This document shows positions 6,376 to 45,398 of a stretch of DNA of 64,000 bases, piece by piece (the stretch's first letter is position 1; every line of letters begins with the position of its first letter). Source of the stretch: Cyanodermella asteris (lineage: Eukaryota; Ascomycota; Lecanoromycetes; Ostropales; Stictidaceae); NCBI GenBank assembly GCA_900618795.1, contig UYJD01000008.1, forward strand, positions 62,001 through 126,000. The letters run 5' to 3'. Position numbers and translations under genes: made by a program. Under the pieces are notes generated by a model. The model saw only the letters and a list, made by a program, of their open reading frames with translations, was not told the origin of the DNA and searched no databases.

Positions 6376-8395
6376 GGCTCAACAAGCTCTGAACAGCACT
6401 CATGTCTTCTCCCTGATCGTCGTTGTTGCCGTTCTCTCCCATGAATGCAGCAACCTCACGATCGCTGCCGGAACCAGCATGCTCCTGGTCTCGACCGCCA
6501 GCCTGCGACGTCTTCTGCCTGCGTCTAACGTTGCCGATGTCTCTGCTGGCCAATAGAGCTCCTGTGCTGCTTTCATGGCTCATCTCTCTCAAGTTTGTTC
6601 CGAGGACTCGACGGCTCGGTGCATCGTTGTAAGGACGGAGAGGATGGATTGGTGCACTCACGCGAGTACCAGGCTGCCAGTTCTCCTTGTCGGAGTCATT
6701 AGCTTCATCCTCATACACCTCAACATCCTTCTTTGGCTTTTTGCCTTTCTTCGAAGCAGTCTTGGGAACACGGATTGGATCAACATGAACATTGGTTGCC
6801 TGCAGTCCAGATGTCTGGAGTCGGGCCATCGAGCTCGAAGTACGAGCCAACTTTGGACGCTCGGTGTCGAGCTGATCCAGGCTCTTGCGCTTAGTACCAG
6901 TCTTGACCTGAGTTGATTCGATGCTGCGCTTGACATGCGAGTTCTGCTTGCGCAGGTTAGGCATCATCGGAGATCCACGCGAATTCTTGGCGGCGCCAGA
7001 ATTGGACCGAAGAAGGCGCAGAGCACCCTGAGCGTTGCCCTTACGATCATGCTCAGCGGCAATGGTCAGTGCATCAGGAGCATCCGGGTCACAATAAAAC
7101 TCCCAGGCGCGAACATCACGAGAGTGTCCCATCGGATGAGTCAGGGCCCATGGTTGAGATGAAGGTTGGGATGAAGAGGGAGCATCGATGGCGGTCTGAT
7201 CAAGGGACGGGACGGAAGGGTTGACAGCACTCTGGCTGCGGGATAGTGGTGCAGCACGTGCTGGCCAAGACTCGCGGCGGTTGTTCTTTGATGGTGGGGA
7301 TGGAGTGGTCTTGTCGTAAACCATCTCAGCCTTGCCATCAAGGGACACACGCATGTGCATGTTGGAGCGGGTCCTCTTCATGGCTCGAGTCGACTTTTGT
7401 GCGACAGTGGGAACCTGATCGACAGCGCTGGTGGACATGCCGGTGGCATGAGCGGCATTGCTCAACCCATCAACCATGAGCACATCAGTTGGCTTCTCGC
7501 CGATTTCGAAGCTCCCCGAGGTCTCCTGCGTGAGCTCAGCGCCTGGAAGCGAGCTGCCGTGGTCAATCTTTGGCGAGCTGTCCACAAAACTCTCGTCTCC
7601 CGAATACTTCTCAAACGACTTCATGCTTGCGTTTTCAAACAAACCAACGCCTGGCTGCGCAACAATGCGATCCTCGTTCTTATCACCAACACTGGACTGG
7701 CTACTGGACATGTCTTGACTGCTCAACTCTTGCGATGGTGGAGGGGAGGCGGAACCTGTGGGTTGACTGGTGCGAATGATTTCCGAGATCTCGTTGGGCT
7801 GCCAAGTGCGTGCCTTTCTCCGGGTCATCTGCCGTCTATTCTGGAACCAAATCTTTTCACGGGCCATGGTCAGCCAGATACTTGGACGGAAGGAAGCGTG
7901 GGCAGCGGCAAGGATGTGAATGTGCGGGGACGGAAGGGTGCGGACAAACCTGGACCTCCTTCTCGTTGAGGGCAACTCGCGAGGCAATGGCTGTTCGTGC
8001 GGCTCTGTCAGGTTTCGCTTCACGTTCGTACGCCGACTCGAGGATGGCGAAATCTTCAGGACTACCAAGACGATGCGTTAGCAGAGGGACAGAAAGCAAG
8101 TGCTGGTGGTCGTGGAAAGCGGCGATGGAGTGGTGAAGGTGGTGCAGTTCACGAACCTGGTGCGCTTGCGTTTTGTACGCGTGTGGGCGAAGCGATCGGG
8201 GTTAGCAGAAGCGTCAGCAGCGGCGGCGGAGTTTTCAGGCGAAAGATGGTGATTCACGACGAAGGTGAAGCTGGTGGCAGCGTTGGTCGTGTGGGAAGCG
8301 TCCTCACTTCTCTCACTTCTCAGCGTGTCGGAAGCAGGTGCATGACGCGGGGAAGAGCTCGAAGGCTCGAGTTGGAGAGATGAGTTGTTCTCCAT
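6353..8395 (-). CDS. Homeodomain transcription factor, Yox1/Yhp1-like
   Basis: A 616-residue nuclear DNA-binding protein assembled from three exons: 8395-8157, 8061-7950 and 7852-6353. The introns are 95 nt (GTTCGT...GGTAG, with GCTAACG) and 97 nt (GTTTGT...AAAAG). Splicing rebuilds a homeodomain at about residues 73-132. It has the basic arm RTKRKRT, helices 1-2 through SPEDFAILESAYE and ALNEKEVQ, and recognition helix IWFQNRRQMTRRKAR with the invariant W, F, N and R. The rest is Ser/Pro/Gln-rich and disordered. The homeodomain resembles ascomycete Yox1/Yhp1 repressors, which in yeasts limit G1/S and M/G1 transcription. That cell-cycle role is inferred here. Because of the introns, single-frame translation shows the homeodomain only in pieces. 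Confidence 0.85.
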
Positions 8396-29646: not shown

Positions 29647-30009
29647 GTCTCGTGTCCTGCGGCTTCGTGTCCTGCTGTGCGCAAGAACAAGGTAGTGTTC
29701 TACCGATCATGACTTTGCTGACAGCATGACACGCAGTGCAGCGTTTCTCAGGTTTGGGTATATTGGTGGACTGAAGTGAATTGAGAAAAAGCATTCCGAT
29801 TCTGCATCCCTTTTGCATTATGTGGTGTATCATATCCTTCGTCAATCCCTATTCCAAACAGTTCCTCTCCTCTGTCGCTTCTTCAACGTCGCTTTGCGAA
29901 ATTCGAGTAAATGTACAGGTGCAATACAACAGTAGAGAAGAGAAATACCCAAGCTCGCCTTCATAACGAGAAACCCCATCTCGGTATATACCACGGCTAA
30001 TGCCCCCTT
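29647..30009. other. Convergent 3' region between REX3 and heme lyase
   Basis: About 360 bases between two stop codons. Nothing beyond presumed 3' UTRs is visible. Confidence 0.5.
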
Positions 30010-43895: not shown

Positions 43896-45398
43896 ATGGC
43901 TCCCACCACGTATGTTTGATCACCAGCTACGATCCGGCTGACGGCGCCGAGTACGAATTGCCAGCGTCCGCCGTGGCATCGCTTCGATTTGCCCAGTTGC
44001 TTTTCAGTCTTGATCTGTCCAATCCTGATGCCAAACCAGCCAGGCGTCCGCCAGGCAGTGGAAGCTATGGGGTCTTGAGGTTGAAGGCATTGCTCTTCTC
44101 CTTTAAAATCAGTGCCGCACCATCTACGATGATTACGATCTGAAATGGTCTCATCTCGTTCTTGGAAATACATGCGTTGCATCGGATATTCTCGAGCTTG
44201 CTTGAGGTCTTGTCGGATGAGGATACATACTCCAGTTGAATTGCGCAAGGGACAAGCTTTGATAAGCTAGAATCTTGATGCCTTCGACGCCAGATGCTCG
44301 GTGCGCTTTGCGCCTGACGCTATCTCGGTCAAGGAGCTGTCTCACCGATTAAATACATTCCGTCGAGTCTCCTTCGCCACAGAGCAATCTAAGAATGCCG
44401 CGCTTCAGCTGCAGTTCTTCCACTCGGCGTCAAGTCTTCAATCTTGAGCGACAGACCATGCTGACCTGCCTCCAGTTCCGTTCCTACCCAGGACCAGGTC
44501 CTCGTGCCTGAGACCCTCCTGAAGAAGCGCAAGAGCCAGGAGAAGGCCCGCGAAGAGCGTGCGGCCGAGCAGAAGAAGAGAAAGGCGGTATGTGATCAAT
44601 AATTTCCATCTCTGCCGGGGAAGTCGCATGGTGATGAAGTGTGATCACACATAATGCGGCTAGACACTGTCGATGTTGCTGTTTTAACATACCATCTTTC
44701 GGGTCTGACATTGCGACGAACCGGCACCTGTTCCATCGAGGGTGAGAACGAGCCAACTGACACATATCTAGGCCAACAAGGAAAAGCGCGGAGAGATCTT
44801 CAAGCGTGCCGAGTCCTATGTCAAGGAGTACCGCGACCAGGAGCGTGAGAAGATCCGCCTGACTCGCCTCGCCAAGCAGAATGGCGAGTACTACGTCCCT
44901 GCTGAGCACAAGCTTCTCTTCGTCGTCCGCATCAAGGGTATCAACAAGATCGCCCCCAAGCCCCGAAAGATCCTCCAGCTCCTCCGTCTCCTCCAGATCA
45001 ACTCCGGCGTCTTCATCAAGTTGACAAAGGCCACCAGCGAGATGTTGAAGGCTGTCGAGCCTTACATCGCCTACGGTTACCCTTCGCTCAAGACCGTCCG
45101 CGAGCTCGTCTACAAGCGTGGTTACGGCAAGGTCGACAAGCAGCGCATTGCTCTCACCGACAACCAGATCGTCGAGAACAGCCTTGGCAAGTACGGCATC
45201 GTCTGCGTCGAGGACTTGATCCACGAGGTCTACAGCGTTGGCCCCAACTTCAAGCAGGCCGCCAATTTCCTGTGGCCCTTCAAGCTGTCCAACCCCACTG
45301 GCGGCTTCAAGACCCGCAAGTTCAAGCACTTCATTGAGGGTGGTGACCTTGGCAACCGGGAAGAGTTCATCAACAAGCTCGTCCAGCAGATGAACTAA
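43896..45398 (+). CDS. rpl7: 60S ribosomal protein L7 (uL30)
   Basis: A cytosolic large-subunit protein of 250 residues. A 14-nt first exon (43896-43909, ATGGCTCCCACCAC) joins exon 2 (44476-44587) over a 566-nt intron (GTATGT...CTCCAG). Exon 3 (44772-45398) follows a 184-nt intron (GTATGT...ATCTAG). The joined N-terminus is [20 protein letters not shown], then the [21 protein letters not shown] basic region. [24 protein letters not shown] and [17 protein letters not shown] are highly conserved, and the end is [11 protein letters not shown]. The tiny first exon with long introns is typical of fungal ribosomal protein genes. The second intron carries a C/D-box snoRNA, as in yeast RPL7 genes. 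Codon use is strongly biased, as expected for high expression. Confidence 0.96.
43910..44475 (+). other. Long first intron of RPL7
   Basis: 566 nt with a GTATGT donor, TGCTGAC branch region and CTCCAG acceptor. I searched it by eye for C/D boxes. GATGATT-like and CTGA elements occur, but none has proper spacing and a closing stem. Its length may reflect transcriptional enhancement or a further RNA that I cannot resolve. Confidence 0.7.
44623..44717 (+). ncRNA. Intronic C/D-box snoRNA in RPL7 intron 2 (snR39/snR39b/snR59 group)
   Basis: C box GTGATGA at 44631-44637 and D box CTGA at 44705-44708. A closing stem of GTCGCA(TG) at 44623-44630 pairs with (CA)T-TGCGAC at 44709-44717, with one bulged base. 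The 14 nt directly upstream of the D box, ACCATCTTTCGGGT (44691-44704), are perfectly complementary to the conserved large-subunit rRNA segment ACCCGAAAGATGGT. By the D+5 rule the target is the G of CCCGAAAG. In yeast, RPL7A and RPL7B second introns host snR39 and snR59, which methylate A807, and snR39b methylates G805 in the same segment. Host gene, intron and target region thus all agree. Sites and pairing are seen directly; expression and the exact methylated base are inferred. Confidence 0.88.

Follow-up and report, generated by a model that had tools for sequence, protein, structure and literature searches.

Box C/D snoRNAs within introns of the ribosomal protein gene RPL7 are already known from several fungi, and the locus described here adds one more genome to these. 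In yeast, snR39 and snR59 lie within the second RPL7 intron (PMC5295604). RPL7 intron positions are common to fungi, with an RPL7 intron position found in 82% of fungal species, and the legend of Fig. 7 in the same paper places a box C/D snoRNA in the RPL7 intron of eight intron-poor species, including Candida dubliniensis (PMC8476143), while PMC5033589 reports snR39 and snR59 as not found in three CTG-clade yeasts. In Fusarium graminearum, a putative intronic SnR39 drops upon deletion of the debranching enzyme (PMC9606315). A 30-nt “rpl7 motif”, for which 22 examples from 17 species are given, has also been described in fungal RPL7 introns and suggested to control splicing (PMC5640933).

The base that is guided differs between the members of this group. 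Yeast G805 is assigned to snR39b and yeast A807 to snR39 and snR59 (PMC2806949, PMC8307265), the latter target also being given in PMC5295604. snR39b and SNORD2 are listed for yeast G805 and human G1509, and a table in PMC3511168 assigns RF01197 (SnR39/59) to the A (Am805 in an older numbering) and RF01299 (SnR39B) to the G. For N. crassa, PMC2780460 mentions four C/D snoRNAs annotated by Rfam, namely snR39, snR52, snR60, and snR61, and its Table 1 contains four asterisked rows, CD38, CD42, CD47, and CD48, for which the homologs are snR61, snR52, snR39b, and snR60. Since four rows stand against four names, CD47 must be the RNA that Rfam calls snR39 in N. crassa. Its entry describes an intronic RNA whose D guide is directed at 26S-Gm785 with a match of 16/0, and 26S-Am787 appears in no row of this table. 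The footnote to the asterisk describes these RNAs as annotated and undetected by experiment, yet the row of CD47 states N, R (PMC2780460). In Entamoeba, a pair of RNAs represents both registers: the guide for G926 is CTTTCGGGTCTGA in an RNA that ends in ATCTTTCGGGTCTGA, and the guide for A928, given as CTTTCGTCTGA and ACCATCTTTCGTCTGA, has a register that is two bases shorter (PMC3542256).

The RPL7 gene and its second intron

The element is located in a window of 64,000 nucleotides, which is the whole stretch of DNA that was analysed, inside the RPL7 (uL30) gene at positions 43896-45398 of the plus strand, as are all features below unless stated otherwise. Joining of the exons gives a reading frame of 250 residues, with a putative exon 1 at 43896-43909, exon 2 at 44476-44587, which terminates in KKRKA, and exon 3 at 44772-45398, which starts with ANKEKR. 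The solved L7 proteins nearest to the translation of exon 3 are chains 7r81 (E 4e-114), from N. crassa, and 7olc (E 1.1e-110), all others being weaker. When the organism's own assembly (28.5 Mb in 25 contigs), regarded as fungal on account of RPL7 and its introns, was searched with exon 3, the RPL7 locus was the sole match found.

Intron 2 (44588-44771) is 184 nt long, starts with GTATGT, and ends with CTAG. It contains a branch-site-like CTGAC at 44757-44761, and the A of this motif is placed 52 nt from the end of the D box. The intron breaks the protein at RKA/ANKEKR, and the first residue past it aligns with residue 36 of 3j6x (L7-A). The second intron of yeast RPL7 follows codon 35, and the two introns would probably occupy the same codon position. 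The gene model has two introns with the snoRNA in the second, as is the case for the fungal RPL7-intron C/D snoRNAs of PMC8476143 and PMC5295604, and these papers, together with PMC2806949 and PMC8307265, also support the proposal in the preliminary description that host gene and LSU segment are shared with yeast snR39 and snR59. The 5' splice site and the C box are 43 nt apart, which is near the commonest class of splice site to snoRNA distances in N. crassa, 41-60 nt (PMC2780460).

Boxes, stem, and guide of the intron element

The C box, GTGATGA, is found at 44631-44637 and the D box, CTGA, at 44705-44708, with 78 nt from the start of the former to the end of the latter. They are joined by a closing stem with its 5' arm, GTCGCATG, at 44623-44630 and its 3' arm at 44709-44717, in which GTCGCA (44623-44628) pairs with TGCGAC (44712-44717), followed by a bulged T at 44711 and two pairs beside the boxes. 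An internal loop, GGAA/GAA, parts this inner stem from an outer helix formed by TGCCGG (44613-44618) and CCGGCA (44721-44726), so that the external stem comprises in total two helices of 6 bp and another 2 bp. The co-folding energy of the flanks, -22.7 kcal/mol, compares with a mean of -12.9 for shuffled flanks; an equally stable fold was seen in 9 of 2,000 shuffles and, when the flanks were placed at random in the window, in 5 of 4,000 trials. Weak candidates for a D' box (CTAG, 44660-44663) and a C' box (TCGATGT, 44670-44676) are suggested by the alignment to the Rfam snR39 consensus, in which the former is aligned to CUAG.

The guide, ACCATCTTTCGGGT, at 44691-44704 directly adjoins the D box and complements the LSU rRNA segment ACCCGAAAGATGGT perfectly over 14 nt. 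The D+5 nucleotide is C44700, which pairs with the G of CCCGAAAG, corresponding to G805 in yeast. The element has what is expected of a box C/D RNA, namely both boxes, a terminal stem that joins them, and an rRNA guide of at least 10 nt (14 nt here) beside the D box. The preliminary description had already reported both boxes, an 8-bp closing stem with one bulge, the 14-nt perfect antisense, and a D+5 that points to the G, all of which hold, whereas the outer helix was absent from it.

The complementarity was judged on LSU sequences of other fungi, as the organism's own LSU was not found in its assembly; the string ACCCGAAAGATGGT is printed in basidiomycete LSU reads of PMC12287172, and PMC12179552 gives GACCCGAAAGATGGTGAACT for a primer on human 28S. 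A search of the assembly with the 14-mer returned the snoRNA itself as the sole occurrence, a search with 5.8S gave no match, and an 18-mer from the next LSU segment matched at four places with 2 mismatches each. One contig carrying the LSU motif was considered as rRNA and dropped, having no Rfam family at gathering score.

No family reached its gathering score when the whole window was scanned against Rfam. When 2.6 kb were scanned at a permissive threshold, snR39 (RF01197) came first of five matches with 28.7 bits (E 0.022), and since its gathering score is 40, it is the closest model and the intron RNA is no formal member of the family. The covariance search proposed in the preliminary description thus gave snR39 as the nearest family over the whole element, but at a score below the cut-off. 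Across the 28.5-Mb assembly the snR39 model had two matches, of which the RPL7 intron was the better (E 0.057 versus 5.7), the other being weak (20.4 bits). However, prokaryote controls put to the same permissive search also gave matches, all below the cut-off, in 8 cases out of 14, so the Rfam score by itself is unpersuasive. The SNORD2 model (RF01299) scored 18.4 bits on the intron RNA, below its gathering score of 37, and its genome search returned two weak places that did not include the RPL7 intron.

Patterns were also used in wider searches. Fungal copies were sought in a viral contig collection, where a loose pattern matched at least 120 stretches and a stricter one none, and a protein scan for the RPL7 genes of relatives found none. 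A pattern scan of genome contigs matched at least 119 stretches, with prokaryotic titles for the matches listed. An RTGATGA within 90 nt upstream was present in five of the 241 pattern matches within the loci collected, which were the RPL7 locus itself, twice, and three unrelated sequences.

The boxes, the flush 14-nt guide, the stem, and the host intron all support the identity as a C/D snoRNA that had been proposed at the outset. Judged on these sequence features, the RPL7 intron element is almost surely a box C/D guide for 2'-O-methylation.

The predicted target base

In an RNA of the yeast snR39/snR59 type, D+5 would stand opposite the equivalent of A807, and in one of the snR39b/SNORD2 type, opposite that of G805. 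Here, C44700 faces the G. The same register recurs in the Rfam snR39 consensus, which terminates in CCAUCUUUCGGGG-CUGA and aligns with the intron through the guide and the D box with zero indels, the spacing between guide and D box being equal (CGGGG-CUGA in Rfam, CGGGT-CTGA in the window). Since no indel intervenes, the D+5 nucleotide of the snR39 consensus likewise points to the equivalent of G805. The guide register in the SNORD2 consensus is also as in the window. A two-base shift particular to this genome, as had been suggested in the preliminary description, therefore finds no support, given the spacing in Rfam snR39, the Gm785 assignment of CD47, and the register of the Entamoeba G926 guide; its assignment of the yeast targets, A for snR39 and snR59 and G for snR39b, agrees with PMC2806949 and PMC8307265. 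The discordant item is instead the Am807 label of yeast snR39 and snR59, and the entry for RF01197 in the table of PMC3511168 likewise speaks against the G. In the literature, no printed oligonucleotides giving the guide-to-D spacing of yeast snR39 were found, and among the papers listed there were, judged by title, no methylation maps of filamentous fungi besides the N. crassa paper (PMC2780460). The element is snR39-like by its locus and by its closest, albeit below cut-off, model, and snR39b-like by its predicted base.

We propose that RPL7 intron 2 encodes a box C/D snoRNA of the snR39/snR39b kind, about 80-90 nt long, that is processed from the intron. Splicing and debranching would free the intron, whereupon the external stem would hold together the C/D kink-turn, to which the core snoRNP proteins would bind, and the RNA would be trimmed back to the stem by exonucleases, by the established route for intronic C/D snoRNAs. 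Once expressed and assembled in this way, the RNA would pair through its 14-nt guide with ACCCGAAAGATGGT and direct 2'-O-methylation of the nucleotide opposite D+5, predicted to be the G that corresponds to G805 in yeast and G785 in N. crassa. We assign this reading a probability of about 0.82. It draws on the boxes, the flush guide, the two-part stem, snR39 as the best Rfam match, and the RPL7 intron position present in 82% of fungi, and further on the register shared with CD47, Entamoeba G926, and the consensus sequences of snR39 and SNORD2 in Rfam, the response of the Fusarium SnR39 to loss of debranching, and the match to ZtsRNA3 described below. Counted against it were the Rfam scores below gathering, the matches in control genomes, the weak D' and C' boxes, the yeast A807 label, the labelling of RF01197 with the A in PMC3511168, the unsuccessful searches for the LSU in the assembly, and the footnote on CD47. 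A ribosomal protein gene would then carry a guide that modifies the ribosome itself.

Another reading is that methylation falls on the A that lies two bases 3' (yeast A807), either by itself or in addition to the G, the latter being the combined role also raised in the preliminary description, and that the count to D+5 does not settle the target here. This would agree with the listing of the yeast RPL7-intron snoRNAs for A807 and with the Am805 label that PMC3511168 gives to the Rfam snR39 consensus, which shares its register with the window, but we consider it rather unlikely because D+5 faces the G, CD47 is assigned to a G, and the A928 register in Entamoeba is two bases shorter. A further point in its favour comes from pattern searches of the genome, which required a near-perfect guide and revealed no second guide of the A807 type that was anatomically complete. 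The first returned 50 places, of which 30 were inspected, and two others returned 12 and 23 places, of which 32 distinct ones were inspected; of the places inspected, none but that in the window had a full set of C box, guide, and D box. However, with 30 of 50 places inspected in the first search, the coverage of other guides is partial.

The nearest candidate for such a guide was on the minus strand of contig C11 (1108881-1108904), where an ATGATGA, D'- and C'-like motifs, and a 9-nt guide in the A register with a CTGA occur together. It is an unconfirmed candidate that falls short of the full anatomy, the sole CTGA in the next 65 nt being inside the C'-like CTGATGT; its Rfam match was to sR14 (18.0 bits, E 0.099). 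Another place has a TGATG upstream of a CTGA in the G register and matches no snoRNA family in Rfam.

More tentatively, and with the odds against it, the intron may have exchanged guides. The RPL7 intron of filamentous ascomycetes would then carry the guide for G805, which is the task of snR39b in yeast, while the same intron in yeast carries guides for A807, and A807 in the present lineage would be unguided or guided from elsewhere; alternatively, the D+5 rule does not hold for the yeast RNAs. If this is true, the host intron was kept while the guided base moved, and ZtsRNA3, which was tested for silencing across kingdoms, would, as a corollary, be a piece of the snoRNA. The comparison exposes a conflict that can be checked, between the D+5 of the snR39 family consensus, which is the equivalent of G805, and the listing of yeast snR39 and snR59 for A807.

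Other origins of the element, ZtsRNA3, and known guide RNAs

The intron could instead be a structured element that controls the splicing or expression of RPL7, as proposed for the 30-nt rpl7 motif, with any small RNA as a by-product. In favour of this, the Aspergillus nidulans RPL7 intron in PMC5640933, where splicing control was suggested, is 184 bp (437 - 253, by subtraction of the product sizes) and hence equal in length to intron 2. Yet the conserved letters are exactly those of the C box, the guide, and the D box, and the entire intron folds no better than its shuffles (z -0.29, 76/200), which makes this explanation very improbable. The published motif may itself be part of the snoRNA.

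On the two strands of the window, three CTGA sites have an LSU complement of at least 9 nt that reaches the CTGA or stops one base short of it: the one in the RPL7 intron (14 nt) and, on the minus strand, those at 29751 (10 nt) and 8238 (13 nt). The last of these, TCACCATCTTTCG-C-CTGA at 8235-8252, has the A807-type register and lies within an apparent reading frame, and no C box was found within 60 nt of it. It is taken as a chance match and illustrates that guide-like matches can arise by accident.

The window contains nine C..D box pairs, of which one on the minus strand, at 36532-36450, has a stem of at least 4 bp by ungapped count; this stem is 6 bp long, and the pair has no Rfam family at gathering score. 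The ungapped count overlooks the stem of the RPL7 snoRNA due to its bulge.

When the intron was dinucleotide-shuffled 20,000 times and compared with a fungal LSU fragment of 198 nt, 436 shuffles had a C..D box pair with suitable spacing, while an LSU complement anywhere in the intron was present in 467 at 10 nt, in 30 at 12 nt, and in 2 at 14 nt. The boxes alone thus carry little weight, and the guide that abuts the D box is decisive. That the boxes and guide were assembled by chance, or are those of a decayed, dead snoRNA copy, is hardly credible, for although such box pairs recur in shuffles and the 13-nt complement at 8238 lies one base from a CTGA in a coding stretch, the 14-nt complement here is flush with the D box within a two-part stem, and the second RPL7 intron is the site of this snoRNA in yeasts and other fungi.

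ZtsRNA3, TAACCATCTTTCGGGTCTGACT, is a 22-nt sRNA of Zymoseptoria tritici that is listed in Table 1 of PMC6620828. It has predicted NAC targets in wheat and was published as an sRNA rather than a snoRNA, the word “snoRNA” being absent from the main text. It is reported to remain present when Dicer is mutated, and no cleavage was detected for the wheat targets predicted for it (PMC6620828). Among the matches listed in a literature search for ZtsRNA, this was the only paper. ZtsRNA3 is identical to positions 44689-44710 of the window at 19 of 22 sites, all of them in one contiguous stretch, ACCATCTTTCGGGTCTGAC, that comprises the guide, the D box, and the next base, C. The first A of its TAACC stands where the antisense of basidiomycete LSU reads (PMC12287172) has a C, which argues that it is more than plain antisense rRNA. 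As far as the sequences go, ZtsRNA3 is probably a fragment of the Z. tritici homolog of the RPL7-intron snoRNA. Such an origin would explain both its independence of Dicer and the undetected target cleavage, and would be a useful caution for screens of fungal small RNAs in cross-kingdom silencing.

Compared with the known systems, the intron RNA is similar to snR39 and snR59 of S. cerevisiae (intron 2 of RPL7A and RPL7B; RF01197) in its C/D class, its location in the second RPL7 intron, and its LSU segment, and the Rfam snR39 consensus aligns with it from end to end. It differs from them in that their listed base is A807, while its own D+5 faces a G, and in scoring below the gathering cut-off of their family. 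With snR39b/SNORD2 (RF01299) it shares the G target and the guide register, and it differs from these in its low score with their model. Yeast snR39b is a stand-alone gene. CD47 of N. crassa is similar in that it is intronic and has a D guide to 26S-Gm785; it is 75 nt long and was compared by its table entry (PMC2780460). The Entamoeba RNA Me-Eh-LSU-G926 has the same guide register and a G target, but is 59 nt long, intergenic, and from a distant organism. ZtsRNA3, finally, resembles the intron RNA over 19 of its 22 nt, spanning the guide, the D box, and the next C, and differs from it as a published 22-nt sRNA.
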